This document shows, piece by piece, positions 1,094 to 60,683 of a DNA stretch of 64,000 nucleotides. Source of the stretch: Odiellus spinosus. Lineage: Eukaryota > Arthropoda > Arachnida > Opiliones > Phalangiidae. Under the pieces are notes generated by a model. The model searched no databases. It saw only the letters and a program-made list of their open reading frames with translations, and had not been told where the DNA came from. The translations under genes and the position numbers were made by a program. Position 1 is the stretch's first letter. Every line of letters begins with the position of its first letter. The stretch is taken from positions 18,501,320 through 18,565,319 of the forward strand of contig OY987230.1 in the NCBI GenBank assembly GCA_963920705.1, given 5' to 3'.

Positions 1094-1511
1094 CAGAGGT
1101 ATATAATAACCCCCTTCGGGGGGAAGTATGAAAGGTAGGCAAAATCGACGAACAACAAGTGCCCGGCGTAAATCGCGGCGGATCGACACACCGCTTTACT
1201 CCCAAAAAATAGTTACACCATTTTGAACCTCACTAAATTTTCCCTACGCACACTTCCGGAACTTGCGAGTTGAAGTCAACCTTCGACTCCATTTTAGCAA
1301 ACAGCCTGACTCCTGAGACAGGAAGTTCTAAACACAAATCGAGCCGTCTTGTTTATACAAAGACCATTTACTAGAGTAGCGACATTGAGAAGTCCAGCGC
1401 GAGCTAGTGGCCTAGATAGTCAGCAGCGGGCTCTTGTTGTTCGTGATTTTTAGCATTGGTAGTATAGGGGCTTTCATACTTCCCCCCGAAGGGGGTTATT
1501 ATATACCTCTG
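1094..1511 (+). mobile_element. Family D MITE, copy 1 (7-bp TSD)
   Basis: A 418-bp non-autonomous element with inverted ends of about 41 bp. The ends start CAGAGGTATATAATAA, and each carries a CCCCC-TTCG-GGGGG hairpin just inside. The flanking 7-bp duplication is ACGAGAC. Because the insertion lies in a minisatellite that contains this word, the duplication is less decisive here than at the second copy (12802). The two copies have the same length, opposite orientation and only scattered differences. No coding capacity is visible. The superfamily is not established. Confidence 0.88.
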
Positions 1512-1745
1512 ACGAGACTTGATGGAGAATTTACAAAAATTCACGAGACTTGATAGAGAATTTACAAAAATTCACGAGACTTGATAGATAATTTACAAAA
1601 ATTCACGAGACTTGATAGTGAATTTACAAAAACTCACGAGACTTGATAGAGAATTTACAAAAATTCACGAGACTTGATAGAGAATTTACAAAAATTCACG
1701 AGACTTGATAGATAATTTAATAAAATTCACGTTACTTCGCAGAGA
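1512..1745 (+). repeat. 31-bp minisatellite, right part
   Basis: Continuation of the array at 996-1093 after the family D insertion, about seven units. The last units degrade (AATAAAATTCACGTTACTTCG), which marks the array edge. Confidence 0.9.
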
Positions 1746-2682
1746 ATTTACTAGAATAAAATTCAATACATTCTCAGTACCGGATTTTAAATATATAGGC
1801 AAAGTAGGTAACTGCCTATGGGGCGGGCACAGCCTAGGGCCCCAATAGAGGGGAGAGGAACCCTGAAACTGGCACTGCCCAGGGGCCTCTACGTGGCTTA
1901 ATCAGGCCCTGTATATATCCTGACTCTTTGACCTTATTTGCTAATAACACAGTATTAGATTAAACGGCAGAGGAAGTCTATTGTATTATAGGAATCGATA
2001 TATCACACCGAACGTCAGTCGATCTAAACCGCTGTCTGAATGATCAATTCCCCGCGAAAAACTATACGTTGTATTAAAAAATAAAAGCATCGCGTCATAC
2101 TGGAATCTTTGCTTCTTCTCGCTTGATAGATCGCTCTTATAAAAAAAGAACGTACCTCGACAAATTCCCAACTTTCTCAAAGTTTTACACAACTCTAAAA
2201 GCTATGTGCTTGTGATTATCAACAAAACTTGAATATTTTAGGTTCTACAGAATTAATGAGATTGTAAAGATTCCAAAGAGTCATGTGGCTTGGCAGAGTC
2301 TGTTTAACCGGTCTCTGTACTAACCTTGGGTCGTAAGGTAATCTCCCAAACGTTACCATAACGCCAGTTTATTTGCAGTAAAACCAAAAATTTAAAATTG
2401 AAATTAGGCTTAAAACCAAATACTAGAATTATATACTCTTAATACATAAAAAAAAATTAAAAAATAAAGCTTAAAAATGTTTTTGGAACACATTGAGGTA
2501 ATTCGTAATTAAAATCATGAAATAAATTAACTTAGTTCCATGTTAAAACAACAGGAAATTATCATTCTTAGATTCAAATCCATCAGAAAGTCCAAAAAAA
2601 CAACAAAAAAAAAACGCATTGCATTAATATTTATTTAAGAATCTTTTGCAAGTTCTACAGAAATTCTATTATGAATTATCTT
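1746..2682. other. No gene seen; local GC-rich patch
   Basis: A GC-rich patch at about 1815-1915 stands out from the AT-rich surroundings. It contains the words GGGCCCC, GAGGGGAG and CCCAGGGGCC. It could be an old retroelement fragment, but I could not assign it. The rest is AT-rich with no supported frame. Confidence 0.5.
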
Positions 2683-2730
2683 ATGGTATAATCATGAATG
2701 TATTCATATGAATACATTCATGGTATAATC
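2683..2730. repeat. Perfect 30-bp palindrome between 11-bp direct repeats
   Basis: Positions 2693-2722 form a perfect palindrome centred on CAT|ATG. The word ATGGTATAATC lies on both sides (2683-2693 and 2720-2730), in direct orientation. It resembles a tiny foldback insertion or an expanded inverted duplication. Confidence 0.8.
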
Positions 2731-3223
2731 GAAGCAAAAATAGATCTAATAATTCCGTGCTAATCACTAGAATCTTCTATTATTTTCCCCCTAAAACCGG
2801 CTTTAATATAAATGTGCAAATACTGAAATTACAAACACATTGGGCAACGTGTTCCGTAGTATAAAAAATTCTATAGGGAATCCTTAGTCCCGCTATGGGC
2901 CACGACTACATATTTCGCGCAAAATCCCGTAATGAGTAGGAATTTAGTAGATATACTACTGTCCCCCACCGGCCTCCCCCTTCTTCCCCGATTGAAGAAC
3001 ATTCGACCAGTGTTCTACGCCACGTTAACTTCACGCGTTTCGTCCAGCTTACCCCGAAATCAAATTCTAATAAAATCGCGTTTAAATTAGCGTAAGTGTC
3101 CGAATGTTACGACTAGAAGAAGCCAGAACTATCGCGGATTATTGACAAGATAAAATTAACTACTCGCGTTTAATTAAAATTGCGGGAAAATTGGATATTG
3201 AAAGACCTATTTTTTGTGATCAG
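2731..3223. other. No gene seen upstream of candidate exon
   Basis: Mixed-composition sequence with several CpG-containing words at 2900-3170 and a C-rich run at 2961-2990. If the frame at 3224 is an exon, this would be intron or 5' flank. The polypyrimidine stretch at 3209-3223 would be its acceptor. Confidence 0.5.
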
Positions 3224-3372
3224 CCTAGCAACAGGCGACCTCCGGGATTTCCCCCGCTACCCAAGAAACTTTTAATTGCCTTTCAATTGGATGCAAATCG
3301 AGTGTTACAGTTCGGATTTTATGGTCAAAAATGCTTCAACTATCTGGCCAAAGGATACCGAAGCATTTTTGG
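3224..3372 (+). CDS. Candidate internal exon, faintly cytochrome P450-like
   Basis: An open frame is bounded by an acceptor-like CTATTTTTTGTGATCAG and a strong donor-like GG|GTGAGT. It covers about 50 codons. The translation begins with a basic, proline-rich stretch (PSNRRPPGFPPLP) and ends with YLAKGYRSIFG about 35 residues later. In microsomal P450s of the CYP2 clan, a PPGP-type hinge follows the membrane anchor. A K-Y-G-x-I-F-type stretch comes some 30-35 residues after that, so the layout is similar. Against this, the usual IGN motif after the hinge is absent, the Gly after the Tyr is Arg, no upstream anchor exon was found, and a downstream acceptor at about 3404 would give an early stop. 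It could be a decayed P450 exon, another protein, or chance. Confidence 0.2.
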
Positions 3373-3820
3373 GTGAGTTTTTATTCAACGTGTTTTATTT
3401 TTAGGTAGTATTTTGTTGTGTTGTGAACTTGATTCGCGGTGTCGACTGATGTTAGGCTTAGCGGTTAGCCCCAGAGCGCCTCTACGGTTTACGCCGCTGC
3501 CGCAATATTTAGGCGCCATTTTTTTCCGCTAAGTAACGAAGACGGGATGGAAAGGGGGTTTGTGGAGGGGGGGGGGATGGAAAACAGGATTGTGGGGGAT
3601 GGAAATTCTTTCAGAAGGATTTTTCGTTTTTTTTCACGCTGCGAAAGGTTGAGTCGAGCCAGAGCGCTCGGTAGTGATAATTATTATTGAGAAGGGATAT
3701 TGGGAAAATTTTCAAGGGTGAAATTAAATATATTTAGGCATATATTTCTAAAATAAAACATTAAATGTTTAGTGGTTTAATTAAACATGTTGACTAAATT
3801 AATTAACTAAATACGATACG
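3373..3820. other. No gene seen; G-rich degenerate repeat
   Basis: A purine-rich stretch at about 3540-3610 repeats GGGATGGAAA-like words three times around a run of ten G. The rest has no supported frame. Confidence 0.55.
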
Positions 3821-4250
3821 TTTAGGGTTTTTTTTAAATTGAATCGGTTTAGGGTTTTTTTTTTTTATAAATTGAATCGGTTTAGGGTTTTTTTAATTGA
3901 ATCGGTTTAGGGTTTTTTTAATTGAATCGGTTTAGGGTTTTTTTTTTTTTAATTGAATCGGTTTAGGTTTTTTTTTTTTAATTGAATCGGTTTAGGTTTT
4001 TTTTTATTTAATTGAATCGGTTTAGGTTTTTTTTTTTATTTAATTGAATCGGTTTAGGTTTTTTTTTAATTGAATCGGTTTAGGTTTTTTTTTAATTGAA
4101 TCGGTTTAGGGTTTTTTTTTTTTTAATTGAGTCGGTTTAGGGTTTTTTTTTTTTTAATTGAGTCGGTTTAGGGGTTTTTTTTTAATTGAATCGGTTTAGG
4201 GATATTTAATTGACTCAGTTAGGGGTTTAGGGATTTTTTAATTGGGTCGA
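3821..4250 (+). repeat. TTTAGGG / poly-T minisatellite
   Basis: About 16 units of roughly 23-31 bp, each of the form TTGAATCGGTTTAGG(G) followed by a T-run of variable length. Length variation is confined mostly to the T-run. Each unit includes TTTAGG or TTTAGGG, but the heptamer is never in direct tandem, so this is a minisatellite and not a telomere tract. Confidence 0.92.
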
Positions 4251-4805
4251 AACCAGGGTAACCAAATTAGTTCGCCACTATACGAAGCTGGTTTTATAGG
4301 TTTTTTAATATATAAATTACAAAATTATTAATATTTTCTACAGTTTTAAGCTCTTTATTTTCAATACGTAGTCTAACCAACTTGAATTTTATTTTTTTCA
4401 TAATCTTGGGAATCTTAGCTTTCCTTCTGTGTTTTTACGTACATGGTTTGTGCAAAACCTCATTTTTTTCTCACCGTTTCATTTTCTTACCGTTACGTAA
4501 TAAGGGTAGTATAGGATTATGAAAAAGATCACGTTTTCCTGAAAGATTCTTAGCTAGCTTGCTAAGCACGCCTTTTCTTTATTTTTTGACGCGAAAATGG
4601 GAATTTTATAACGAGGTTGGAAACAACAGCTGATCTTTTTCTTCTTATTTTAGCTCTCTAGGGCCTCCTTCGTAAACTTTTTTCTTACTTCAATATTGTT
4701 TTTGCTTTATATTAAGTTTTAAGTTACGTATTATGCACTCATCTTAATGGGATTTTTTATATGTTATATAGTAGGGGTATAATAGCGTTATAATACAATA
4801 TTGGT
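4251..4805. other. No gene seen
   Basis: AT-rich flank between the TTTAGGG array and a TTAA-flanked transposon fragment. Nothing recognised. Confidence 0.6.
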
Positions 4806-4998
4806 TTAAAGGGATAATGCAACCTAACAAGTGATTTTTAATCCATTCCTTATCGGTTCATCAGTAAGAAAAATTACAAAAATATTAAACTAGATATAAA
4901 TTTAAAATTTACCCAGAAATTAGGCTTAGCTGGATTCATGAAGATCCTGATTTCCTCGCGTATAAGGGCAGCAACCAATCGAATCTTGAGATCTCGCC
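4806..4998 (+). mobile_element. Family B TTAA element, left-half fragment
   Basis: Starts TTAAAGGGATAATGCAACC and follows the left half of the complete B copies at 17251 and 36931, including the AATATTAAACTAGA and GGCTTAGCTGGATTCATG stretches. It stops at the central hairpin, where a family C left end begins directly. The right half is missing. Confidence 0.75.
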
Positions 4999-5050
4999 TT
5001 AAAGGGAGAATGAAAGACCAAAACAACCTATTTTATTTTTTTTCGATTGA
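4999..5050 (+). mobile_element. Family C TTAA element, left-end fragment
   Basis: TTAAAGGGAGAATGAAAGAC with the following CAAAACAACCTATTTTA matches the left end of the complete element at 15362. It abuts the truncated B half in the same orientation. This is either a nested insertion that lost its right side or an end-swapped chimera. Confidence 0.65.
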
Positions 5051-5123
5051 GACCTCTTTGAAATTGGGTTAGTCCATTTCTTTCGTTAATTTCCATGGGA
5101 GCATATTGAAATGAAACTTAAAA

Positions 5124-5433
5124 CCATGGATTAATCAACCTCACAGTGATAATTCACTCTGGTAAAATGATTGTTCGAATCGCACCCTGGTGACAAAAAT
5201 TGTCTCTACACCGGAAGTTTCTAGCTACCGATACACGGGGTGAAATATTGAAGGGGGGAAAAACCCTAAAGCAGACGATGCTCTCATGGATTACTTCCGG
5301 ATTTGTATCGGTAAGGGGGTAAATTTGAGGGGCCGGATAAAATGTCTGGCAGCCATGTTTGAAACAAACATCTTCAACTACTTAGCAAATCGTACCAAAG
5401 TGAATTATCTCTGTGAGGTTGATTAATCCATGG
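5124..5433. mobile_element. Family L inverted-repeat element, 310 bp
   Basis: Terminal inverted repeats of about 40 bp run CCATGGATTAATCAACC to GGTTGATTAATCCATGG. The word TAAAA sits on both outer sides as a possible 5-bp duplication. Inside, CCGGAAGT at 5211-5218 and ACTTCCGG at 5293-5300 form a second inverted pair near matching ACCGATA and TATCGGT words. No coding capacity. Superfamily unassigned; only one copy seen here. Confidence 0.75.
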
Positions 5434-6130: not shown

Positions 6131-6465
6131 CAGAAGCCGATGAAACCCTCCTTTGAAGTCTATTACTCCCTGGTCTTGTCTACCCCTCTCTGTATGGGTT
6201 AGTTTCAAAAAGCGCGATTTGTACGCCTCCTAACGGTAGATATTTTCGGAGCGGAAGTTCGTCGAGCGAATATATCTAGCAGCCTTGGAGTTCGTCAAAA
6301 AAACGTCGTCGTTTCTGGAGAGAGAATTTCCAATTTTCCGTAGACAGGGGGTTTGAAGTAGGACCCCTCCGATCTCGTAAAATTGAGAATTTTACCCATA
6401 CAGAGAGGAGCGCTATATGGAACATAAGAGTAGTAGACTTCAAAGGAGGGTTTCATCTACTTCTG
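6131..6465 (+). mobile_element. Family A MITE, copy 1
   Basis: Family A elements are 326-344 bp with imperfect inverted ends of about 75 bp. The outer part reads CAGAAG(CC or TA)GATGAAACCC, then TTTGAAGTCTA. An inner match is CTCTCTGTATGGGT. Plus orientation here means the end carrying GTCTTGTCTACCCC is on the left. This copy has ends CC/TA and a perfect 7-bp duplication, CGAATGG. The 60-77-codon open frames found in several copies lie on both strands and in several frames, so they are not evidence of a protein. Confidence 0.93.
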
Positions 6466-8812: not shown

Positions 8813-9147
8813 CAGAAGCCGATGAAACCCTCCTTTGAAGTCTACTACTCCAATGTTCCATATAGCGCTTCTCTCTGTATGGGTAAAATTCCCAATTTTA
8901 CGAGATCGGAGGGGTCCTACTTCATACCCCCCTGTCTACGCAAAATTGGAAATTCTCTCTCTCCACAAACGACGACGTTTTTTGACGAACACCGAGGCTG
9001 CTAGAGATACTCGCTCGACGAACTCCCGCTCCGAAAATATCTACCGTTAGGAGGCGTACGGATTGCGCCTTTTGAGAATAACCCATACAGAGGGGTAGAC
9101 AAGGCCCGGGAGTAATAGACTTCAAAGGAGGGTTTCATCGGCTTCTG
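8813..9147 (-). mobile_element. Family A MITE, copy 2
   Basis: Full-length, minus orientation, both ends of the CC type. Perfect 7-bp duplication GTAATAT. The interior carries the TTATTCTCAAAAGGCGC variant (minus strand) shared with the copies at 43972 and 55186. Confidence 0.93.
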
Positions 9148-9745: not shown

Positions 9746-9961
9746 CAGGGTTGCCACAGGTCAGGGAATTTGAAAATGAACCAAAAAGATCAGGGAAAAG
9801 TCGGGTAATTTTAAGATATTTCAAGACGTCAGGATTACCATATAAAAGGTTAAAAATTGGGTAGTATTAGCTGAAACGGTCAGGGAAAATCGTTGGGAAA
9901 GGTCAGGGAAAAACCTGGGAAAGTCAGGGAATTTGAATCTGAAATAACTGTGGCAACCCTG
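9746..9961. mobile_element. Family H hAT5-like MITE, 216 bp
   Basis: Ends are CAGGGTTGCCACAG and CTGTGGCAACCCTG, flanked by a 5-bp duplication, TTCAG. The interior repeats GTCAGGGAA-type words several times (GGTCAGGGAATTTGAA, AAAGTCAGGGAATTTGAA). The CAGGG start fits the hAT terminal pattern. A 5-bp duplication is what is reported for the hAT5 lineage, so that assignment is an inference from ends and target size only. Confidence 0.82.
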
Positions 9962-10639: not shown

Positions 10640-10930
10640 CAAGAAGGATCAGATAAGGAGAGGAAAAGTGGGGCTGCGTTGAGTTTGAGAGAGAAGAGCC
10701 AACCTCCCACTCGGGTGGAAAGGGGGATAGGAAATTCTCGAGGTAAACTGTTGTCACGTGGTCGCTAGCTAGCGCGTCTCATAAAGGATTCGTTTTACCC
10801 ACGTGACAACAATTTACCACGAAGCATCTCTACCCCCGTCTGTCCCCCGTTCTCCCAGAGTGGGAGTTCAGGCCGACGCAGTAGGAGCCGCGCCGTTCCC
10901 ACTTTTCCTCTCCTTATCTGATCCTTCTTG
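10640..10930. mobile_element. Family I MITE, 291 bp (7-bp TSD)
   Basis: Inverted ends of about 33 bp start CAAGAAGGATCAGATAAGG and are flanked by a perfect 7-bp duplication, ATGATAG. A nested pair inside matches GTTGTCACGTGG (10751-10762) to CCACGTGACAAC (10799-10810). The core is GC-rich relative to the surroundings. Its CARRA start and 7-bp target place it structurally with families A, D and E, though its sequence differs from theirs. No coding capacity. Confidence 0.87.
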
Positions 10931-12801: not shown

Positions 12802-13219
12802 CAGAGGTATATAATAACCCCCTTCGGGGGGAAGTATGAAAGCCTCTATACTACCAATGCTAAAAATCACGACCAACAAGAGCCCGCTGCTGACTATCTA
12901 GGCCACTAGCTCGCGCTGGACTTCTCAATGTCGCTACTCTAGTAAATGGTCTTTGTATAAACAAGACGGCTCGATTTGTGTTTAGAACTTCCTGTCTCAG
13001 GAGTCAGGCTGTCTGTTAAAATGGAGTCGAAGATTGACTTCAGCTCGCGAGTTCCGGAAGTGTGCGCAGGGAAATTTTAGTGAGGTTCAAAATGGTGTAA
13101 CTATTTTTTGGGAGTAAAGCGGTGTGTCGATCCGCCGCGATTTAAGCCGGGCACTTGTTGTTCGTCGATTTTGCCTACCTTTCATACTTCCCCCCGAAGG
13201 GGGTTATTATATACCTCTG
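12802..13219 (-). mobile_element. Family D MITE, copy 2 (7-bp TSD)
   Basis: 418 bp, the same length as the copy at 1094 but in reverse orientation. The perfect 7-bp duplication GTATAAG lies in non-repetitive flank, which confirms the element ends. Both ends again carry the CCCCC-TTCG-GGGGG hairpin. The 60-codon frame running out of its right side is incidental. Confidence 0.93.
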
Positions 13220-14225: not shown

Positions 14226-14463
14226 AAGAAACGATAAATCCAGGACATGACTCTAGCGTCTACTAAAAGAAACAGGCTACGTCATCACCGTACCGTGATG
14301 ACGCTTTTTTTGGGATCAAGTTTGTACAGTCAAAGGTATGGCGTTTTGGGAGCAAAGTGACGTCATATGACGTCACACGCTGTACGAAGGCTGTTTGTTT
14401 GGCCGACCGAGAATTTTATTCCTTCAAAAGGGGAAGAGTCATGTCCTGGATTTATCGTTTCTT
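14226..14463. mobile_element. Family J inverted-repeat element, 238 bp
   Basis: AAGAAACGATAAATCCAGG with the following ACATGACTCT is matched by the exact inverse at the right end, ending at 14463. No clear target duplication is visible. Inside are an imperfect hairpin at 14282-14305 (CGTCATCAC and GTGATGACG) and a perfect 20-bp palindrome at 14358-14377. Single copy in this window. Confidence 0.78.
14358..14377. promoter_or_regulatory. Double CRE palindrome
   Basis: GTGACGTCATATGACGTCAC is a perfect 20-bp palindrome made of two full TGACGTCA octamers separated by TA. TGACGTCA is the consensus CREB/ATF site. The motif is seen directly; function here is not shown. Confidence 0.6.
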
Positions 14464-15361
14464 GGCCCATGTTTTAATCATTACAAAAATCATTATTTTA
14501 TTTTGGCCAATATTACCCATCCTTTAAATTTAAAGGACGGTGGGGACCTAGGGGTACTCTAATCGTGGTACGTTAAGCCTTCGTTACTCGGTTAAAAGAA
14601 AGAATCTTGGCTGGGGAATCCTCCACAGGTGTGTCGTTCCGCACGTGTAAGGTCTCTCTTGATATCGACCGTATGTCCCTTTGGTAGTGCGCGTTTTGAG
14701 TGAGTGCTCGCGGTAACAACTCTAATGAATTCGCCGTCTAATTTCGGATGGATACCTCGAATACCGGGCCTTAGTTATTGCTCTACGTTTCCCCCTTTCC
14801 CTTTAACGCTTTTAATATTACAAATACAACTAGAGTACGTCCGAGTCGGACTCGATAGCCTGCACACGTATGAAGTTTATAATACTTGTTTGTTTTAATG
14901 CACCTCCTGAAATATGCAACAATGCTCAGCAATTTGCTTAATATATATATATATATGATTGTTTCTCGTTTTGCCCCGAATTATTGGCGGGAAATATCTT
15001 TGTTATAACTCTCTAATATATAGGATAAAGCTGCCTTATATCAACAATTGCATCTTTGCAATTTTGTGGAATTCATAGGCCATTCTAGTTTTCAAATTAC
15101 AATGTACTTTTTCTCAAGGATCGTTCGCAAGCCTAGCTTAACTTCCAAAAATAAATTAAAAAGCTGTTTTATATTTAGCTCTATCTAAAAAATATACTAA
15201 CCTTTTAAAAATTTAAATTTCCTGTTTGCATAGTTTAAATTCCCTAACGTTTCCTTGACCTTTTAAACGTAACATTTAAAATTCTGATTTTTTTTCATGA
15301 TCTTTTAGGCCAATATTTAAATTTCCCTATGGATTATTCTTATATCCAAATATCTAACTTC
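14464..15361. other. No gene seen; TA microsatellite and H-like debris
   Basis: An (AT)n run occupies about 14940-14957. A stretch at 15220-15345 repeats AAATTCCCT and CCTTGACC words, which resemble a decayed minus-strand family H element. A 64-codon frame at 14704-14898 has no motif. Confidence 0.5.
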
Positions 15362-16175: not shown

Positions 16176-16216
16176 GTTTAAATTAAGGTTAGTAAAGAGA
16201 CAGGTTAGGCAGATTC

Positions 16217-16254
16217 TGACGTCAGCCGGAAGTTACCTAGCGCGCAGCCATCTT
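16217..16254. promoter_or_regulatory. CRE, ETS and YY1-like words in left arm of F
   Basis: TGACGTCA (16217-16224), CCGGAAGT (16226-16233) and GCAGCCATCTT (16244-16254) sit within 38 bp. These match the consensus sites of CREB/ATF, ETS and YY1. The match is seen directly; activity is an inference. Confidence 0.55.
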
Positions 16255-16622
16255 CCAAATTCCTTTGACAATTGCTAGATGGCGATTTATATTGTAATTA
16301 CGGCGGGAATTTCAAACTAATATCCAATATGTTGTTTCCAATGAACGTTGCCAGGTGGCATTAAGGTCAAGCCGACTCAAGCGACTGAGTGGAATACGAA
16401 CTGAACTGAACGACCGGCGTCTGCTTAAAAATTATAATATAGTGAAATTTATGCTTGATTATAGTGAAACGTATGTTAAAGCGTTACCTGCGCTATATGA
16501 CAATCGACTTACTAAGTGCCACCTGGCAACGTTCATTGGAAACAGCATATTGGATATTAGTTTGAAATTCCCGCCGTAATTACAATATAAACCGCCATCT
16601 AGCAATTGTCAAAGGAATTTGG

Positions 16623-16660
16623 AAGATGGCTGCGCGCTAGGTAACTTCCGGTTGACGTCA
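16623..16660. promoter_or_regulatory. YY1, ETS and CRE-like words in right arm of F
   Basis: The mirror-image cluster of the left arm: AAGATGGCTGC (16623-16633), ACTTCCGG (16644-16651) and TGACGTCA (16653-16660). Confidence 0.55.
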
Positions 16661-16705
16661 GAATCTGCCTAACCTGTCTCTTTACTAACCTTGGTTTAAA
16701 TATGC

Positions 16706-16984: not shown

Positions 16985-17250
16985 TACTAGGCCTAGGCTA
17001 ATACGATTTTTTTCCCAATTAACAACTCTAGTAAGCCTGATTATTGTTAATTGGCTAATACCTATATGAGATTATCATTGTGCATTGATCCGCTTGTCCA
17101 TGAATCCTATATTATCATTACCAAAATATTTGTACCTGATTAAAACCTTCTTATTTAGACAGCTATTTTGATGTAATTGTGTATATGTTAGCCATCTTGA
17201 TTTTTATTTGAATTAACAATTACATTTTGAAACTAATATTTTCATAGAGC

Positions 17251-17691
17251 TTAAAGGGAGAATGCAACCTAATTACAAGTGATTTTTTATCGATTCCTTA
17301 TCGTTTAAATAGGCCTAATCCACCGATAAAAAGTTTACAATACAAATATTAAACTAGAAATAAATTTAAAACTTACCCTGAAAATAGGCTTAGCGGGATT
17401 CATGGAGATCCTGAATCGCGTCCGTGTAAGGTCTAGCGACCAATGAGCAAAGGCCCGTCGTTCACGCGAGATCTCCACGAGACTTACGTCGCGCGCGATT
17501 GGTCGCTAGACCTTACACGCGAGGAAATCGGGAGCTCCATGAATCCCACTAAGCCTATTTTCAGGGTAAGTTTTAAATTTATTTCTAGTTTAATATTTGT
17601 TTGTAAATTTTTTAAATAGTGGATTAGGCCTATTTAAACAATAAGGAATCGATAAAAAATCACTTGTTGTTAGGTTGCATCCTCCCTTTAA
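17251..17691 (+). mobile_element. Family B TTAA-flanked MITE, copy 1, 441 bp
   Basis: Runs from TTAAAGGGAGAATGCAACC to GGTTGCATCCTCCCTTTAA, with TTAA at both borders. Inverted matching extends over most of the element to a central hairpin (GGTCTAGCGACCAAT and ATTGGTCGCTAGACC). It differs from the copy at 36931 at five positions by direct comparison, with no length change. The target and ends fit piggyBac-like or Kolobok-like elements. Confidence 0.93.
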
Positions 17692-17973
17692 GACTTGCCC
17701 TTCAAGTTCGTTTTTATTTAGTTTCAGTTTGTTAACACTGGTTTAGTTAATCAATTCGAAATTAAAAGGTTTCTTCGAATACAAAAAAAAGTTCTTCCTT
17801 GCATTATTGAGCATTCTTTAATTCGTGTTTAAAAACATACAGCTTTAAGTTTTTCTCCAAATCGTAAGAAAAAAACAGAAATGGAAGAAAAAAAGATGCA
17901 AAATTTCTTTGTTTAACAACGGAAGAAAAGGGAAGTGGAATCCCTGGTGTCTTTTCTGTCGACCGTATTTTCA

Positions 17974-18362: not shown

Positions 18363-18679
18363 CAAGAATCCATTCAGGTTCCATAAGAATATGGGAGAGC
18401 CGCGATTCAATAACCATCCTCCCAAACTTTGTAGCAAAAGTTCGTCCGCTTCGAATCGATTTTTCAAGTAAATCGCTCCTGACATTATATTATTAACCCG
18501 CGCCACTAACGACCTTGACATAATATTTTGGGTATTAAAAATGGAGCCAACCGAAAAAAGATCTAAGGGTACAAATGTTGCGAAAATTGCGGACGAACTT
18601 TTGTTACAAAGTTTGGGAGGATGGTAACAGAGGCTAAAGCTATGCTTCCATATTCTTATGGAACCTGAATGGATTCTTG
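18363..18679 (+). mobile_element. Family E MITE, copy 1 (7-bp TSD)
   Basis: 317 bp with inverted ends of about 33 bp starting CAAGAATCCATTCAGG. A second inverted pair lies inside: ATCCTCCCAAACTTTGTA and ACAAAGTTTGGGAGGAT, with adjoining GTTCGTCCGC. The perfect 7-bp duplication is ATAATAG. Copies at 52528 (same orientation) and 60368 (reversed). The 60-codon minus frame across it is incidental. Confidence 0.92.
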
Positions 18680-18989: not shown

Positions 18990-20565
18990 CTAATGGACGC
19001 CTATCTTAACAATAATTATTACAACGCGCCCATTCTTACATCAAAAGGGTTTTGATTGGCCTCATTCCTACTTTATCATTTTGGAGAGGTTGGAAAATGC
19101 TTTTACATTGGCACTAGTGTTAACCGAATCCCATCTAACAATTATTCCAACACACCTATTCATAGAGGTTTAGTCCTATTTCCTTTTTGGTTAATTGCAA
19201 TTTATTAACTGTATTTCAATGGTGGGGATTGGAAAATAGTTTCTATACATTGCTAGTCTTAACCGAATCACACCTACAGCAATTATTCCAACGCACCCAG
19301 TCTTAGAAAGGGCTTTTTATTAGTTTTATTCCTACTTTGGTTAATTCTTATTAATTAGCGACTGTTTTTCCATTAGGAGAGATTGGAAAATGGTTTCTAC
19401 ATTGCTAGTCTTAACCGAATCACACCTACAGCAATTATTCCAACGCACCCAGTCTTAGAAAGGGCTTTTTATTAGTTTTATTCCTACTTTGGTTAATTCT
19501 TATTAATTAGCGACTGTTTTTCCATTAGGAGAGATTGGAAAATGGTTTCTACATTGCTAGTCTTAACCGAATCACACCTACAGCAATTATTCCAACGCAC
19601 CCATTCTTAGAAAGAGCTTTTTAGTTTTATTCCTACTTTGGTTTATTCTTATTAGCGACTGTTTTTCAATTAGGAGAGATTGGAAAATGGTTTCTACATG
19701 GCTAGTCTTAACCGAATCACATCTACAGCAATTATTCCAACGCACCCATTCTTAGAAAGAGCTTTTTAGTTTTATTCCTACTTTGGTTAATTCTTATTAA
19801 TTAGCGACTGTTTTTCAATTAGGAGAGATTGGAAAATGGTTTCTACATTGCTAGTCTTAACCGAATCACACCTACAGCAAATATTCCAACGCACCCATTC
19901 TTAGAAAGGGCTTTTTATTAGTTTTATTCCTACTTTGGTTAATTATTATTAATTAGCGACTGTTTTTCAATTAGGAGAGATTGGAAAATGGTTTCTACAT
20001 TGCTAGTCTTAACCGAATCACACCTACAGCAATTATTCCAACGCACCCATTCTTAGAAAGGGCTTTTTATTAGTTTTATTCCTACTTTGGTTAATTATTA
20101 TTAATTAGCGACTGTTTTTCAATTAGGGGAGATTGGAAAATGGTTTCTACATTGCTAGTCTTAACCGAATCACACCTACAGCAATTATTCCAACGCACCC
20201 ATTCTTAGAAAGAGCTTTTTAGTTTTATTCCTACTTTGGTTAATTCTAAATAATTAGCGACTGTTTTTCAATTAGGAGAGATTGGAAAATGGTTTCTACA
20301 TTGCTAGTCTTAACCGAATCACACCTACAGCAATTATTCCAACGCACCCATTCTTAGAAAGAGCTTTTTAGTTTTATTCCTACTTTGGTTAATTCTTATT
20401 AATTAGCGACTGTTTTTCAATTAGGAGAGATTGGAAAATGGTTTCTACATTGCTAGTCTTAACCGAATCACATCTACACAAATTATTCCAACGCACCCAT
20501 TGTTAGAAAGGGCTTTTTATTAATTTTATTCCTACTTTGGTTAATTCTTATTAATTATCTATTAG
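18990..20565 (+). repeat. Satellite array, unit about 151 bp, roughly ten copies
   Basis: Each unit contains GAGAGATTGGAAAATGGTTT, CTAGTCTTAACCGAATCAC, AATTATTCCAACGCACCCA and CTTTTTATTAGTTTTATTCC. The anchor GGAAAATGG recurs near 19385, 19537, 19682, 19831, 19983, 20134, 20284 and 20433, so spacing is 145-153 bp. Small length differences come from TTA or TTAATTA gain and loss. Units at the left edge (before 19380) are clearly more diverged than those inside. Confidence 0.93.
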
Positions 20566-20726
20566 CAAAGAGTAGCAAAAGTAATTACACTAAACAAAAT
20601 CACGTGAATGAATAATATATAGGTAGACGTGCACGTTGATTTATTAGTTCCTACGTTTGCCTGCTCAGTTTGCCGTTAGAGAACACTTAAGAACGCCATA
20701 TTTCGTTATTCATCTATATCTATTAA
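20560..20726. repeat. Family G element, copy 2, left arm decayed
   Basis: The right side has TTTGCCGTTAGAGAACACTTAA and TTATTCATCTATATCTATTAA, matching the right arm of the copy at 57160. The left arm is reduced to GTAGCAAAAGTAA and abuts the satellite end. Confidence 0.6.
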
Positions 20727-29975: not shown

Positions 29976-30319
29976 CAGAAGCCGATGAAACCCTCTTTTG
30001 AAGTCTACTACTCTGTTCCATATAGCGCTTCTTTCTGTATGGGTAAAATTCACAATTTACGAGATCGGAGGGGTCCTACTTCATACCCCCCCCTGTCTAC
30101 GGAAAATTGGAAATTCTCTCTCTGCACAAACGACGACGTTTTTTTTTTTTTTTGACGAACTCCAAGGCTGCTAGAGATATTCGCTCGACGAACTCCTGCT
30201 CCGAATATATCTACCGTTAGGAGGCGTACGAATCGCGCTTTTTGAAACTTACCCACACAGAGACGGGTAAACAAGACCAGGGAGTAATAGACTTATAAGG
30301 AGGGTTTCATCGGCTTCTG
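29976..30319 (-). mobile_element. Family A MITE, copy 3
   Basis: Full length, both ends CC, minus orientation, with a long T run inside (30140-30152). It is the only A copy without a recognisable 7-bp duplication: CCACTAT on the left against AACCAAG on the right. Its interior has the GTTTCAAAAAGCGC variant (minus strand), which otherwise goes with copies having a TA end. Confidence 0.9.
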
Positions 30320-31870: not shown

Positions 31871-32281
31871 CAGGGTTCGTACACGACCTGGAAAACCTGG
31901 AAAAGTCAGGGAATTTGGAAATTGGCCCAAAAAGTCAGGGAAAAGTCAGGGAATTTGAAAATAGCTCAAATGGTCAGAGAAAATAAATATTTTGGTATGT
32001 GCCAAGGAACTGTTTATGATTGGTTTACCAATCAGTTGTAACGTAATTATTATAAACTGAAAATATTTGCCTAAAGATTCAATTTCTCATATTCTGAGTA
32101 AGCTATCCTGACCCCGATTTATAAATAATGTCAAATAAAATGTGAGAATTGCCAACAGCTCGCTCGTAAGAATATATTCATGAAAAAATATTAAAATTGG
32201 TCAGGGAAATTATTTGGAAATGGTCAGGGAAAACCTGGAAAAGTCAGGGAAATTAACTTCCAAAATTTTGTACGAACCCTG
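31871..32281. mobile_element. Family H hAT5-like MITE, 411 bp (5-bp TSD)
   Basis: Ends CAGGGTTCGTACACGACC and TTTTGTACGAACCCTG, flanked by a 5-bp duplication, TCTGA. Just inside each end are multiple AAAGTCAGGGAA and GGTCAGGGAAA words, in direct orientation across the element. The terminal pattern fits hAT, and a 5-bp duplication fits what is described for hAT5. It is longer than the 216-bp relative at 9746. Its end sequence also differs from that one after CAGGGTT, so they are separate subfamilies. Confidence 0.85.
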
Positions 32282-33630: not shown

Positions 33631-33968
33631 CAGAAGCCGATGAAACCCTCCTTTGAAGTCTATTACACCCTGGTCTTGTCTACCCCTCTCTGTATGGGTT
33701 AGTTTCAAAAAGCGCTATTCGTACGCCTCCTAACGGTAGATATTTTCGGAGCGAGAGTTCGTCGAGCGAATATATCTAGCAGCCTTGGAGTTCGTCAAAA
33801 AAACGTCGTCGTATGTGGAGAGAGAGAATTTCCAATTTTCGGTAGACAGGGGGGTATGAAGTAGGACCCCTCCGATCTCGTAAAATTGTGAATTTTACCC
33901 ATACAGAGAGGAGCGCTATATGGAACATTAGAGTAGTAGACTTCAAAGGAGGATTTCATCTACTTCTG
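33631..33968 (+). mobile_element. Family A MITE, copy 4
   Basis: Plus orientation, ends CC/TA, perfect 7-bp duplication ATAATAG. Same interior variant as the copies at 6131 and 38469. Confidence 0.93.
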
Positions 33969-36930: not shown

Positions 36931-37371
36931 TTAAAGGGAGAATGCAACCTAATTACAAGTGATTTTTGATCGATTCCTTATCGTTTAAATAGGCCTAATC
37001 CACCGATAAAAAGTTTACAATACAAATATTAAACTAGAAATAAATTTAAAACTTACCCTGAAAATAGGCTTAGCGGGATTCATGGAGATCCTGAATTGCC
37101 CCCGTGTAAGGTCTAGCGACCAATGAGCAAAGGCCCGTCGTTCACGCGAGATCTCCACGAGACTTACGTCGCGCGCGATTGGTCGCTAGACCTTACACGC
37201 GAGGAAATCAGGAGCTCCATGAATCCCACTAAGCCTATTTTCAGGGTAAGTTTTAAATTTATTTCTAGTTTAATATTTGTTTGTAAATTTTTTAAATAGT
37301 GGATTAGGCCTATTTAAACAATAAGGAATCGATAAAAAATCACTTGTTGTTAGGTTGCATCCTCCCTTTAA
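36931..37371 (+). mobile_element. Family B TTAA-flanked MITE, copy 2, 441 bp
   Basis: Same borders, orientation and length as the copy at 17251, exactly 19680 bp away. Differences read directly: one T/G near the left end, three clustered substitutions near 37097-37101 and one G/A near 37210. Flanks outside the TTAA borders are unrelated, so this is an independent insertion and not a segmental duplication. Confidence 0.93.
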
Positions 37372-37900: not shown

Positions 37901-38238
37901 CAGAAGTAGATGAAACCCTCCTTTGAAGTCTACTACTCTAATGTTCCATATAGCGCTCCTCTCTGTATGGGTAAAATTCCCAATTTTACGAGATCGGAGG
38001 GGTCCTACTTCATCCCCCCTGTCTACCGAAAATTGGAAATTCTCTCTCTCCACATACGACGACGTTTTTTTGACGAACTCCAAGGCTGCTAGATATATTC
38101 GCTCGACGAACTCCCGCTCCGAAAATATCTACCGTTAGGAGGCGTACGAATCGCGCTTTTTGAAACCTAACCCATACAGAGAGGGGTAGACAAGACCAGG
38201 GAGTAATAGACTTCAAAGGAGGGTTTCATCGGCTTCTG
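37901..38238 (-). mobile_element. Family A MITE, copy 5
   Basis: Minus orientation, left end TA and right end CC, perfect 7-bp duplication CTATATG. It lies 230 bp from the next copy, in inverted arrangement. Confidence 0.94.
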
Positions 38239-38468: not shown

Positions 38469-38807
38469 CAGAAGCCGATGAAACCCTCCTTTGAAGTCTA
38501 TTACTCCCGGGTCTTGTTTACCCCTCTCTGTATGGGTTAGTTTCAAAAAGCGCGATTCGTAGGCCTCCTAACGGTAGATATTTTCGGAGCGGGAGTTCGT
38601 CGAGCGAATATCTCTAGCAGCCTTGGAGTTCGTCAAAAAAAAACGTCGTCGTTTGTGGAGAGAGATAATTTCCAATTTTGCGTAGACAGGGGGTATGAAG
38701 TAGGACCCCTCCGATCTCGTAAAATTGGGAACTTTACCCATACAGAGAGGAGCGCTATATCGAACATTAGATTAGTAGACTTCAAAGGAGGGTTTCATCT
38801 ACTTCTG
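38469..38807 (+). mobile_element. Family A MITE, copy 6
   Basis: Plus orientation, ends CC/TA, perfect 7-bp duplication ATAGAGT. With the copy at 37901 it forms an inverted pair that could fold over about 900 bp. Confidence 0.94.
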
Positions 38808-43971: not shown

Positions 43972-44308
43972 CAGAAGCCGATGAAACCCTCCTTTGAAGT
44001 CTATAACTCCCGGGTCTTGTCTACCCCTCTCTGTATGGGTTATTCTCAAAAGGCGCGATCCGTACGCCTCCTAACGGTAGATGTTTTCGGAGCGGGAGCT
44101 CGTCGAGCGAATATCTCTAGCAGCTTTGGAGTTCGTCCAAAAAACGTCGTCGTTTGTGGAGAGAGAGAATTTCCAATTTTCCGTAGACAGGGGGGATGAA
44201 GTAGGACCCCTTCTAACTCGTAAAATTGGGAATTTTACCCATACAGAGAGGAGCGCTATATGGAACATTGGAGTAGTAGACTTCAAAGGAGGGTTTCATC
44301 GGCTTCTG
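43972..44308 (+). mobile_element. Family A MITE, copy 7
   Basis: Plus orientation, both ends CC. The 7-bp flanks ATATGAT and ATATGAA match at six positions. Interior variant TTATTCTCAAAAGGCGC. Confidence 0.93.
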
Positions 44309-45455: not shown

Positions 45456-45610
45456 AAAAAATCGGAGGTTTGCAGAGGAAACCTAGAAAAAGCGGGAAAT
45501 TTAAGAATTCATATCTGTAAAGGTTATAGGGCGAATTTAAAAATATATTTTAAATCATTTTCAAATTAAATTTGTATCAGGCAAATTTAGAATTTGATTT
45601 AAATGAAGAT
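45456..45610. mobile_element. Family H-like debris beside the 28-bp array
   Basis: GAGGTTTGCAGAGGAAACC, AGAAAAAGCGGGAAATTT and ATTAGGGAAATTTAG resemble the internal words of H elements. The array that follows grows from GGGAAATTTAGAAATTGATT. Confidence 0.4.
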
Positions 45611-45993
45611 TAGGGAAATTTAGAAATTGATTTAGGGTCTGGAAAATTTAGAAATTGATTTAGGGTCTGGAAAATTTAGAAATTGATTTAGGGTCTGGAA
45701 AATTTAGAAATTGATTTAGGGTCTGGAAAATTTACAAATTGATTTAGGGTCTGGAAAATTTACAAATTGATTTAGGGTCTGGAAAATTTACAAATTGATT
45801 TAGGGTCTGGAAAATTTACAAATTGATTTAGGGTCTGGAAAATTTACAAATTGATTTAGGGTCTGGAAAATTTACAAATTGATTTAGGGTCTGGAAAATT
45901 TACAAATTGATTTAGGGTCTGGAAAATTTACAAATTGATTTAGGGTCTGGAAAATTTACAAATTGATTTAGGGTCTTGAAAATTTACAAATTT
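45611..45993 (+). repeat. 28-bp minisatellite, about 13-14 units
   Basis: Unit GGAAAATTTA(G/C)AAATTGATTTAGGGTCT. The first four units have G at the variable position, and all later ones have C. The switch is near 45732. Apart from that the units are almost identical, which suggests recent expansion from one C-type unit. Confidence 0.95.
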
Positions 45994-46879
45994 TGAAAAT
46001 ACCTTCCCTTGAACAGAATATATCCTATTGGCCAAACCTAAGTCGAATTGGTACATGAGTATATCAAATTTCAGGAAAAAACACAATAGATCTGAAACTA
46101 GTACTATTTTTTTCCCTCCACCATATATTTTAAGCTTGATTACTAATGACCGCTTACTAACATCACATCGCCTTAAGCCTCGGTCCTTGTATATACAGAC
46201 AGTATACTGCGTTCTGAACCTTTGCCCCTAAACCCGGGCCTCCTTTATTCAAGCTTCGCCCTTAAACATATCATCCCGTGAAGTATACGACTTGTTGCAG
46301 TTAATGAAGCTATGACGGGGGAAAGCGGAAAATAAATCTAAGTATATAATATACCGAAACCCAATGTCTCCCAACTTTTCACGCGTTATTCCAAATAAAT
46401 CGAACACGAAGTGGAGAGATTTTTGAGAGGGTGGGTTTGGTTTGCTCCACTCTTTTGATATATACGTGGAGTAAGGCTTAATGAAAGGATGTTAAGGAAA
46501 CACGAGAAGACGGTGTAGTAGGACGCTTAATCATCCACCCATGTTGTAGTAGCTTTCGAGCTATCCCACAGGTCTACAGATTTATATCAAAGATAACCTT
46601 CCCACCTCGTGACGTACTCCTCTGAGTCCTCTCTCTGTTGACTATATTTATCTCTCTAATGTTGCGGCTTCGGCGTCTTCCCTGTTATCAACTTGTTCCT
46701 TCCTCTCCCCTCGTTAACCTCGGTTGATATCGCCATTCTACGCTTATCTAACTTTGGTTCCCGCGCCCCAGAATGGTTAGTTAGGCTTAGCTCATCGCGA
46801 GTTCAAATAAAAACCGAATTCTAAGCCCAAAACGGTGATTTTTGTATGCTGTCACTGCTGCACGGTTTAATTTTAAAAT
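45994..46879. other. No gene seen
   Basis: TATATACGTGGAGTAAGGCTTA at about 46460 resembles TTATACGTGGAGCAAAGTTA at 45233, a possible low-copy repeat. A 67-codon frame at 46028-46231 has no motif. Confidence 0.5.
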
Positions 46880-46940
46880 ATTGTAAAAGAGGGTTCATAT
46901 GCAAACCTGGAAATATCACGAATTTGTAAGTTTACCAAAA
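46880..46940. mobile_element. Family H-like left-end debris beside the 30-bp array
   Basis: GAGGGTTCATATGCAAACCTGG, then ATCACGAATTTG, recalls the left end of the element at 31871 (CAGGGTTCGTACACGACCTGG). It leads straight into the array's AAATCAGGGAAACTC word. Confidence 0.45.
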
Positions 46941-47430
46941 AATCAGGGAAACTCTTAAAAATTAGACATAAATCGGGGAGACTCTTAAAAATTAGACATG
47001 AATCGGGGAGACTCTTAAAAATTAGACATGAATCGGGGAGACTCTTAAAAATTAGACATGAATCGGGGAGACTCTTAAAAATTAGACATGAATCAGGGAG
47101 ACTCTTAAAAATTAGACATGAATCAGGGAGACTCTTAAAAATTAGACATGAATCGGGGAGACTCTTAAAAATTAGACATGAATCGGGGAGACTCTTAAAA
47201 ATTAGACATGAATCGGGGAGACTCTTAAAAATTAGACATAATCGGGGAGACTCTTAAAAATTAGACATAAATCGGGGAAACTCTTAAAAATTAGACATAA
47301 ATCTGGGAAACTCTTAAAAATTAGACATAAATCTGGGAAACTCTTAAAAATTAGACATAAATCTGGGAAACTCTTAAAAATTAGACATAAATCTGGGAAA
47401 CTCTTAAAAATTAGGCATAAATCAGGGAAA
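46941..47430 (+). repeat. 30-bp minisatellite, about 16 units
   Basis: Unit ACTCTTAAAAATTAGACAT(G/A)AATC(G/A/T)GGGA(G/A). Variants are grouped. CGGGGAG units fill the middle, two CAGGGAG units lie within them, and CTGGGAAA units fill the right side. One unit near 47240 is 29 bp. Grouping of this kind is expected from stepwise local duplication. Confidence 0.95.
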
Positions 47431-47451
47431 TTTATGGAAGTACCAGTAATA

Positions 47452-47490
47452 TGAGGTGGATTGTTACAAAATGCTTAACTACATATAGAA
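47452..47490 (+). repeat. Family P dispersed repeat, copy 5, short
   Basis: TGAGGTGGATTGTTACAAAA is followed by TGCTTAAC. It matches only the first part of the other copies and lies immediately right of the 30-bp array. Confidence 0.4.
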
Positions 47491-48343
47491 AAATATAAGT
47501 ATTGGAAAATTCCTATTAGATTTTGACATCTAATTAGTCTGTGTATTGAGCTAAATCCAAATTTAAAAATAAGAGTAATCTTCTTTTTAAACCTTACATA
47601 TTTTATTGAAATTTCCCCATGATTCTGACGAGCTATTGTGATGAAAAGACTTGTTTTTATATGAGACTGATGTGAATAGTCGCTAATTCCATTGTCCCAA
47701 TAACATTTAATTAGTATTTCTTGATACGGAGGAAGAAGCAAGAAAGATTGTTCCTTCCTTAACCCCAATTTTTTTTTTTTTTTCTTTCTTTAATTCATTG
47801 CCAACAGTTGATCCGTGCTAAATCTCTTTTTATGAGTAAGTGGGAGTGTATATACTTTGTTCTGGGTTCTTTATTTTCTTTTTATGAACTTGAAGAATGA
47901 ATTACTTTCGTATCGCGTGTTAACCCACACTCTCCCGTCATGCGTGATGTTTTTACTTCTTATTGGAATATGATTTTGGCGCGTTTTATTTCCGTATACT
48001 GATATAAATGCGTATTTTATTCGCTTCTGATTAAACGATCTATATATATTGAATAAATATCTACAAACGATAGTTAATAACTTGTTCTAGAAAAGTATAA
48101 TTATGGCCCATTACCGTAACGCTACCCGAATGTGATTTTAATTGAAATTTCCAGTATGATGATTAAATTTTATTGGTGGGAAACCATTGACTCCAAAAGT
48201 TGCTACACTTTTGCCCTGTGTTACACTAAAGCTATTGGCACCAATGTAGCTCCAGGTTATAATATTTTTTTGATGTGTTTAACAAGCGTTTATTTCGTAA
48301 GTGCAGAAAAAGACATTGTCGAACAAGAGTGATCGCTAACAAC
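47491..48343. other. No gene seen
   Basis: Contains a T15 tract at 47769-47783. A 97-codon minus frame at 47475-47768 and a 66-codon plus frame at 48132-48332 carry no motif. Confidence 0.5.
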
Positions 48344-51192: not shown

Positions 51193-51527
51193 CAGAAGCC
51201 GATGAAACCCTCCTTTGAAATCTACTACTCCAATGTTCCATATAGCGCTCCTCTCTGTATGGCTAAAATTCCCAATTTTACGAGATCGGAGGGGTCCTAC
51301 TTCAAACCCCCGTGTCTACGGAAAATTGGATATTCACTCTCCACATAGTTGACGCTTGGTTGACGAACTCCGAGGTTGCTAGAGATATTCGCTGGACGAA
51401 CTCCCGCTCCAAAAATATCTACCGTTAGGAGGCGTACGAATCGCGATTTTTGAGACTAACCCATACAGAGAGGGGTAGACAAGACCCGGGAGTAATAGAC
51501 TTCAAAGGAGGGTTTCATCGGCTTCTG
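51193..51527 (-). mobile_element. Family A MITE, copy 8
   Basis: Minus orientation, both ends CC, perfect 7-bp duplication CTATAAA. The most diverged interior of the ten (GACGCTTGGTTGACGAACTC instead of the usual ACGACGTTTTTTTGACG). Confidence 0.92.
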
Positions 51528-52527: not shown

Positions 52528-52843
52528 CAAGAATCCATTCAGGTTCCATAAGAATATGGGAGGGCCGCGATTCAATAACCATCCCCCCAAACTTTGTAGC
52601 AAAAGTTCGTCCGCTTCGAATCGATTTTTCAAGTAAATCGCTCCTGACATCTATTATTAACCCGCACCACTAACGACCTTGACATAATATTTTGGGCAAT
52701 AAAAATGGAGCCGGCCGAAAAAAGATCTAAGCGTACAAATGTTGCGAAAATTGCAGACGAACTTTTGTTACAAAGTTTGGGAGGATGGTACCAGAGGTTA
52801 AAGCTATGCTCCCATATTCTTATGTAACCTGAATGGATTCTTG
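52528..52843 (+). mobile_element. Family E MITE, copy 2
   Basis: 316 bp, same orientation as the copy at 18363. The flanks GTTTAAC and GTTTAAG match at six of seven positions. Internal inverted pair intact. Confidence 0.91.
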
Positions 52844-55185: not shown

Positions 55186-55519
55186 CAGAAGCCGATGAAA
55201 CCCTCCTTTGAAGTCTACTACTCCAATGTTCCATATAGCGCTCCTCTCTGTATGGGTAAAATTCCCAATTTTACGAATTAGAAGAGGTCCTACTTCATCC
55301 CCCCTGTCTACGGAAAATTGGAAATTCTCTCTCCACAAACGACGACGTTTTTGGACGAACTCCAAGGCTGCTAGAGATATTCGCTCGACGAACTCCCGCT
55401 CCGAAAACATCTACCGTTAGGAGGCGTACGAATCGCGCCTTTTGAGAATAACCCATAGAGAGAGGGGTAGACAAGACCAGGGAGTAATAGACTTCAAAGG
55501 AGGGTTTCATCGGCTTCTG
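55186..55519 (-). mobile_element. Family A MITE, copy 9
   Basis: Minus orientation, both ends CC. Flanks TAAGGAT and TAAGAAT match at six of seven positions. Interior variant as in the copies at 8813 and 43972, including GAATTAGAAGAGGTCC where most copies have GAGATCGGAGGGGTCC. Confidence 0.93.
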
Positions 55520-59266: not shown

Positions 59267-59592
59267 CAGAAGTAGATGAAACCCTCCTTTGAAGTCTACT
59301 ACTCTAATGTTCGATATAGCGCTCCTCTCTGTATGGGTAAAATTCCCAATTTTACGAGATCGGAGGGGTCCTACTTCATACCCCCTGTCTACCGAAAATT
59401 GGAAATTCTCTCTCTCCACATACGACGACGTTTTTTTGACGAACTCCAAGGCTGCTAGATATATTCGCTCGACGAACTCCCGCTCCGAAAATATCTACCG
59501 TTAGGAGGCGTTTTTTGAAACTAACCCATACAGAGAGGGGTAGACAAGACCAGGAAGTAATAGACTTCAAAGGAGGGTTTCATCTACTTCTG
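59267..59592 (-). mobile_element. Family A MITE, copy 10
   Basis: Minus orientation, and the only copy with both ends of the TA type. Perfect 7-bp duplication AGTTCAT. It is the shortest copy, with a deletion of about 11 bp between GGAGGCG and TTTTTTGAAAC compared with the others. Confidence 0.93.
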
Positions 59593-60210
59593 AGTTCATG
59601 TATATGTTAACTTTATACATTGCTGCCAAATGAAGATGAAATGTGCTATAGTTTCGGGTACGGAATACGAATTGATTTGTCAGCAAATACAATGTTAGTC
59701 TACCCCGTTATCTCTGATTTATTTCCTTATTCGGATTCAGCTTTACAGGCGCTGCCAAATCAAGATCAAATATACTATATATTTATCTTTCCCTCTGTTT
59801 CTTGGCGTGCATGAATACGATTGATGAGTTCAGTTTAGCTTCCATATTATTAGCATATCCCTTACTCAGTCGGAACTTTGGAAAACTCGGTCTATCTATA
59901 AAATGTAAAATAATATTTTAGATTCTATATACATTTTTTATTTTATTTCCTGTAGATATACTTCGATGTTTTCGAGATATGTATTATTTTAAAAGTATTT
60001 GGTTATGTAGAACGATCCATCTTTTCAGTTTCTTTAGTATTTTTTCTTTTCTTTTTATTATTGATATATATTCTTTGAATACAATAATTTGGTGTTTCTA
60101 TTTACCGGTATCGAATATTGAATATATTCAATCAGGAATTTTTATTTAAATATAGAGGGAATATTGAACATTTTCTAAAAACTTTATTCCAACTACTAGT
60201 TAAGGACGAC
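59593..60210. other. No gene seen
   Basis: GCTGCCAAAT followed by AGAT occurs twice (about 59621 and 59752), as a short direct repeat. A 64-codon frame has no motif. Confidence 0.5.
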
Positions 60211-60323
60211 GAGGGGTCAGACACTCTTGAATTCGCTGTACACCTGAGTTTACTGAGTTCAGCTTTGATAGTGCAAAGAGTTCAAAACTTTTGTACACCT
60301 GAGTTGGCGAGTGTCTGCCCCTC
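60211..60323. repeat. Inverted repeat, 113 bp
   Basis: GAGGGGTCAGACACTC (60211-60226) pairs with GAGTGTCTGCCCCTC (60309-60323). Inside, TGTACACCTGAGTT occurs twice in direct orientation. The 77-codon frame across it is incidental. Confidence 0.65.
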
Positions 60324-60367
60324 GAAGCCTAGATATCTTAATTTTTCTTGAATTCATGACCTTATAC

Positions 60368-60683
60368 CAAGAATCCATTCAGGTTCCATAAGAATATGGG
60401 CGCATAGCTTTAGCCTCTGGTACCATCCTCCCAAACTTTGTAACAAAAGTTCGTCTGCAATTTTCCCAACATTTTACGCTTAGATCTTTTTTCGGTCGGC
60501 TCCATTTTTATTACCCAAAATATTATGTCAAGGTCGTTAGTGGCGCGGGTTAATAATATAATGTCAGGAGCGATTTACTTAAAAAATCGATTCGAAGCGG
60601 ACGAATTTTTGCTACAAAGTTTGGGAGGATGGTTATTGAATCGCGGCCCTCCCATATTCTTATGGAACCTGAATGGATTCTTG
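60368..60683 (-). mobile_element. Family E MITE, copy 3 (7-bp TSD)
   Basis: 316 bp, reversed relative to the copies at 18363 and 52528. Perfect 7-bp duplication CTTATAC. All inner pairs present. Confidence 0.92.

Follow-up and report, generated by a model that had tools for sequence, protein, structure and literature searches.

The genome of Odiellus spinosus (Opiliones) carries several families of miniature inverted-repeat transposable elements (MITEs) that duplicate 7 bp of their target, and four of them, families A, D, E and I, are probably non-autonomous members of the P superfamily, of the 7-bp-duplicating type exemplified by Galileo. The four families were studied in a stretch of 64,000 nucleotides (contig OY987230.1, our C6, positions 18,501,320-18,565,319; hereafter the window) within a 443-Mb genome of 286 contigs. 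We infer P membership from the length of the duplication, the target motif, the length of the inverted ends, their CA start and the abundance of P transposases in the genome, not from a coding partner. No new superfamily is needed for the 7-bp MITE families. The window itself holds no start-codon frame of 150 amino acids (aa) or longer, no tRNA and no Rfam family at the gathering score.

A scan for inverted-repeat pairs starting with CARRA recovered, at the same coordinates, all 16 A, D, E and I elements that had been noticed in an earlier reading made from the letters of this DNA alone (the sequence-only reading), and all 16 start with CARRA as that reading had said. The families are about 290-420 bp long and have near-perfect inverted ends of approximately 30-41 bp, with a few mismatches in those of A. 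Family D is present at 1094-1511 on the forward strand (418 bp; 41 bp perfect terminal inverted repeat, TIR, beginning CAGAGGTATATAATAACCCCC; target site duplication, TSD, ACGAGAC), where it lies inside a tandem array of 31-bp units, and in the opposite orientation at 12802-13219 (418 bp; GTATAAG), the two copies being 97.6% identical. Family A, which starts with CAGAAGCCGATGAAACCC, has ten copies. Seven are flanked by a perfect 7-bp repeat, at 6131-6465 (335 bp; CGAATGG), 8813-9147 (GTAATAT), 33631-33968 (ATAATAG), 37901-38238 (CTATATG), 38469-38807 (ATAGAGT), 51193-51527 (CTATAAA; the query of our local searches for A) and 59267-59592 (AGTTCAT). The copies at 43972-44308 (ATATGAT/ATATGAA) and 55186-55519 (TAAGGAT/TAAGAAT) match at six positions, and the copy at 29976-30319 has no TSD, its flanks agreeing at 2 of 7. 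Family E starts with CAAGAATCCATTCAGG and is found at 18363-18679 (ATAATAG, in ATA-rich surroundings where a shifted match of 12 bp is also possible), 52528-52843 (GTTTAAC/GTTTAAG, 6 of 7) and 60368-60683 (CTTATAC; the local query for E). The single I element, at 10640-10930, is 291 bp long, starts with CAAGAAGGATCAGATAAGG and is flanked by ATGATAG. Family D is both numerous and uniform. The best 40 of 153 genome candidates, query included, are 415-419 bp long and 97-100% identical, and its 33-bp end, with up to 2 mismatches, occurs 2015 + 1966 times genome-wide (control 0), which would suffice for about 2,000 copies.

The duplication is 7 bp long. It is perfect in 12 of the 16 window copies, matches at six positions in three (43972, 52528, 55186) and at two in one (29976), exactly the tally given before. 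Mean flank identity in the window is 0.93 at 7 bp vs. 0.17-0.38 at 2-6 and 8-12 bp. When left and right flanks were re-paired at random, the largest number of perfect 7-bp pairs in 2000 trials was 6 (mean 0.87), as opposed to the 12 observed. Identity of the re-paired flanks was also raised at 7 bp (mean 0.43), which hints at a target motif common to the copies. The sequence-only reading had further argued that extension to 8 bp fails in most cases. In a fixed frame none of the 16 window copies has a perfect 8-bp duplication, but 6 of the 12 perfect copies give a longer match once the boundaries are shifted to count element end bases. By our own estimate the chance of one extra matching base is about 44%; because the shifted matches are about as frequent as chance allows, the argument from the window alone is weak, and it is the empty site that carries the conclusion. 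Removing element D 1094-1511 together with 7 bp restores the surrounding 31-bp array at 78 of 80 bases, while removal with 0, 5, 6, 8 or 9 bp gives only 50-56 of 80. This settles the length at 7 and bears out the earlier statement that the target is not a misread 8-bp hAT site. Where an I element is nested in an A copy (L022 6810-7090), 7 bp is again best, although by a small margin (48/60 vs. at most 45).

Copies outside the window repeat this result. We examined 10 kb on either side of the window and 18 further samples of 10 kb. These contained 11 copies of A, E and I that are whole or almost so, with a perfect duplication at 7 bp in 10 and at 6, 8 or 9 bp in none. Three of four further copies from later fetches are also perfect at 7 bp, for an overall count of 25/31 copies examined; partial A copies (L023 8489-8680, and those on either side of the nested I in L022) are excluded from these counts. 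The sequence-only reading was right that these are non-autonomous elements with inverted ends and a true 7-bp duplication.

A scan free of the CARRA requirement added three more 7-bp families, J, K and Lf, all starting with CA. Family J has one copy (L011 8750-9755; CAAAAGTC), family K has two (L016 3064-3377 and L018 6811-7135; CAAGAATAGA) and Lf was found at L032 141-394 (CATGGGCC). There is also an Lf copy in the window at 14226-14471, 95% identical to that in L032, with an eroded left end and no duplication found. The starts of J, K and Lf are CAAGA, CAAAA and CATGG, and because of these the start common to the families is CA and not CARRA, true as the latter is of the window elements. With the tandem-array locus L015 set aside, the free scan gave 27 pairs at 7 bp vs. 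2-5 in each of five block shuffles. L015 swamps this control; if it is kept, three shuffles give 160 against the 27 real pairs. Reversed sequence provides no null, since reversal keeps the structure. Twenty of the 27 pairs belong to A, D, E or I and five are J, the two K copies, Lf and the P element of locus L031 described below. The remaining two (L011 3355-6181 and L024 2756-2946) have weak ends and a start other than CA, and were counted as chance pairs. The P element of L030 is absent from the 27, presumably through the complexity filter. A length of 7 bp is no general habit of this genome, because two elements with hAT-looking ends, judged by eye and without a domain test, have 8-bp duplications (L016 129-369, CAGGGCC; L032 3983-4653, TAGGGGT).

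The duplicated sites share a palindromic motif. We derived the target from 28 perfect sites, drawn from 33 elements with J, K, Lf and two P elements among them. After symmetrising it reads VTAWTAB, with an extra T three bases before the duplication and the mirror of that T. The mirror letters T at position 2 and A at position 6 (T2/A6) account for 42 of 56 after symmetrising. All four letters of TA.TA are present in 6/28 sites vs. 0.9% of the 7-mers of the window (binomial 1.7e-7). A Galileo-type target is a palindrome with T at position 2 and A at position 6 of 7 bp, and this is the form of the sites duplicated here; VTAWTAB is close to the Galileo consensus GTANTAC. The outer flanks of the target sites showed none of the Galileo pentamers.

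P transposases are abundant in the genome. A PF21787 profile search returned 386 candidates, 150 of which were scored, and at least 150 matches lie over the cut-off, many of them in frames of 600-929 aa; matches are not equal to loci, as some are fragments or neighbours. The same profile had no match in 14 control genomes (of unstated kind). Seven P loci were fetched and two of these, L030 and L031, have recognisable ends, in a scan that asked for duplications of 7 or 8 bp. The L030 element (1066-5205, 4140 bp) has a perfect 29-bp TIR, the TSD ATCCGAC and a frame interrupted by a stop, the parts of which were searched separately. The L031 element (1010-4786, 3777 bp) has a perfect 31-bp TIR, the TSD TTTGAAG and an 801-aa frame whose sole PDB match at E 0.01 is the P transposase 6p5a (E 3.3e-21). 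In a domain check covering seven P frames or pieces, the frames of both elements contained THAP, TNP-like RNaseH_N and GBD domains. These are P transposases between inverted ends with a TSD, as expected of complete P-superfamily elements, and in both readable cases the P elements of this genome do make 7-bp duplications. By BLASTP, without a tree, the P transposases form at least two groups.

Four of the fetched loci show a further feature. The P transposases of L029, L032, L033 and L034 belong to one BLASTP group, and after each comes a second frame, of 222-554 aa, in convergent orientation. BLASTP links these companion frames to one another, that of L029 only to that of L034, and none has a Pfam family at E 0.001. 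Such pairs point to a P-type transposon with two genes, longer than the 6.5 kb fetched. In L036 a 929-aa P-transposase frame lies amid nested short inverted repeats of 11 bp (GTGCCAACGCT) and 10 bp (CGTGACGTCA), with no end pair within 4.5 kb.

Members of the P superfamily duplicate 7 or 8 bp, and A, D, E and I duplicate 7. Inverted ends of about 30 bp starting with CA are likewise typical, the CA part being general knowledge to which the L031 element is an exception, and the four families have such ends. The Drosophila P element also starts with CA. Among described systems, Galileo is the nearest likeness. This member of the P superfamily has usually been reported with a 7-bp TSD (8 bp in three copies); the consensus across six Drosophila genomes, GTANTAC, is part of a palindrome of 15 bp (PMC4168063, PMC2775673). 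As in our families, the published descriptions give a duplication of usually 7 bp, a palindromic target with a TA.TA core and a large number of non-autonomous copies in which inverted ends enclose a spacer (PMC4168063, PMC2775673). The sequence-only reading had called 7-bp targets uncommon, with P-like elements near; the P-like relative was apt, but 7 bp is the usual length in these accounts of Galileo (PMC4168063, PMC2775673). Galileo differs in its long, internally repetitive ends, compared with entire elements of about 290-420 bp here. The element 1360/Hoppel also duplicates 7 bp. It has been grouped with Galileo and P in the P superfamily (PMC4168063). The P-derived MITEs of Anopheles gambiae are similar in that several families with P-type ends occur in a genome with several P subfamilies, and the Anopheles P ends of 27-31 bp resemble the ends of approximately 30-41 bp found here (PMC1562414). 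In that description each MITE family is tied to one P subfamily, MITEs having been found for 6/7 subfamilies with known ends; the duplications there are 8 bp and coding partners were found, whereas here they are 7 bp and limited searches for D and E gave no coding partner (PMC1562414). The Drosophila P element has a recognisable relative here in the L031 frame, but is itself a coding element with an 8-bp duplication (PMC1562414).

Under the P-superfamily reading, a P-type transposase supplied in trans would bind the 30-41 bp inverted ends and presumably cut out the MITE. The MITE would be inserted with a 7-bp stagger at the TA-rich palindromic site VTAWTAB, and gap filling would then be expected to produce the 7-bp duplication. 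P transposases presumably move these families, each of which may be, or may have been, served by a P lineage of its own.

Several observations weigh against this reading. Abundant as P transposases are, a limited search for transposase-coding elements bounded by the ends of D or E gave none; the long elements with these ends for which the sequence-only reading had proposed to look were sought, in this limited way, for D and E only. There are 192 D ends that keep the first 30 bp and then continue with different bases; the approximately 100 that were listed depart from the MITE in a G run or by point changes. Tblastn of the P frames (E 1e-3) against the window and the sampled regions gave no match. 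The P-element ends, CACTACCTCC and CGGTGCCTCC, differ from the MITE ends at 6-10 of 11 positions and show no obvious likeness, and one of the two P elements with known ends, L031, does not start with CA. No TIR/TSD pair was found in five of the seven fetched P loci (L029, L032, L033, L034, L036). Finally, the T2/A6 preference also resembles the nTnnnnAn target commonly ascribed to hAT elements.

The search for a coding partner turned up other candidates. Two D ends have the longer TIR followed by other bases, and one of these may be the MITE with a single base deleted; the end patterns used would miss partners with slightly different ends or with next bases that agree with the MITE. Two E ends with non-MITE neighbouring bases proved to be ordinary E copies. 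The sole 3.5-kb "long D" candidate among the places listed, all on contig C1, is two D MITEs in inverted duplication. Locus L035 (C1:17192943-17196524) contains an inverted duplication with two D copies, separated by 2.7 kb. The first copy has a 7-bp TSD, and its left flank reappears, inverted, to the right of the second copy. By analogy, this arrangement is reminiscent of the exchanged duplications that have been reported at inversions produced by Galileo.

The main rival is that the families are hAT MITEs of a branch that duplicates 7 instead of 8 bp. The target preference would suit it, as would the CA start, and 7-bp hAT families may exist in Repbase. The start of D, CAGAG, fits the YARNG rule generally given for hAT ends, but the G at position 5 is absent in A, E, I, K and J and only D and Lf of the seven families have it. 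Ends of 30-41 bp are also long by the usual standard for hAT, no window copy has the 8-bp duplication and the empty site gives 7, and the hAT-looking elements L016 129-369 and L032 3983-4653 duplicate 8 bp in this same genome. We consider a hAT origin unlikely. Also unlikely, at slightly longer odds, is an explanation that overlaps with the P-superfamily reading, namely that one and the same lineage of P-superfamily transposases, with loose requirements for the ends, mobilises all of the CARRA families. Duplication length and target motif are common to the families, all ends start with CA, and the families occur together, in one case with one inserted in another (I inside A in L022). Their ends, however, are unlike: any two of A, D, E and I mismatch at 4-9 of their first 11 bases, and the nearest pair overall, E and K, has 2 mismatches; the Repbase end rule assigns elements to the same superfamily when TSD length is the same and the first 11 bp have at most one mismatch (PMC4455052), and the four families lie outside it. 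The two complete P elements have different ends, at least two P groups are present, and the MITEs of Anopheles are each described as tied to one P subfamily (PMC1562414). A shared superfamily suffices to explain a shared duplication length. The proposal in the sequence-only reading of one relaxed lineage for all four families gains no support here. It is just as doubtful that a single P lineage needing little beyond CA and a TA-centred 7-bp target cross-mobilised at least six dissimilar MITE families.

An origin in Dada, in a MULE-like superfamily or in one so far undescribed with 6-7 bp targets would be compatible with the failure to find a coding partner, which leaves the transposase unseen in its own element. 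Dada duplicates 6-7 bp and is aimed at multicopy RNA genes. The window has no Rfam match, so the copies lie outside known RNA genes, unlike Dada targets, and no RNA-gene targeting was seen (no search for Dada or MULE was made). The presence in this genome of P elements that made 7-bp duplications also speaks against this origin, which we regard as very unlikely. The last alternative is chance or faulty framing, with no real duplication of fixed length. Some duplications do lie in AT-rich simple sequence (18363, 33631), and half of the perfect copies permit a longer shifted match, as noted. Re-paired flanks nonetheless never exceeded half the observed number of perfect pairs, and 7 bp recurs in independent copies, in empty-site restoration and in the shuffle control of the free scan. 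Flank re-pairing, the D empty site and the shuffles rule out both chance and a misframed 8-bp target, and this explanation is refuted.

Other repeats were noted in the window. Two inverted-repeat elements starting with CAGGGTT (9746-9961 and 31871-32281) have flanks that match over 5 bp only and are possibly hAT-like, with eroded duplications. Tandem arrays occupy 960-1787, 3796-4239 and 19094-20593 (units of about 31, 25-32 and 149-152 bp) as well as 45529-46076 and 46851-47518 (about 28 and 30 bp), and the unit of approximately 152 bp at 19094-20593 recurs on at least seven contigs. Large inverted repeats at 16177-16700, 17250-17692 and 36931-37371 have arms of 189-195 nt that are 88-96% complementary; two of the three are copies 98% alike and 19.7 kb apart.

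Neither the 7-bp duplication of P-superfamily elements nor the existence of MITEs derived from P (in Anopheles, 8 bp) is new. In the published accounts the 7-bp duplications are described for Galileo in Drosophila, and the Anopheles P elements and P-derived MITEs duplicate 8 bp (PMC4168063, PMC1562414). The families described here would be new non-autonomous members of this known kind. Both facts would be extended by several P-type MITE families that duplicate 7 bp, one of them numerous enough in its ends for about 2,000 copies, and at least 150 P-transposase matches together with several Galileo-like 7-bp MITE families would widen the 7-bp P type. The genome is also material for asking which ends a single P transposase accepts. 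For elements with a 7-bp duplication and a CA start, our results suggest that the P superfamily be checked before a new superfamily is proposed.

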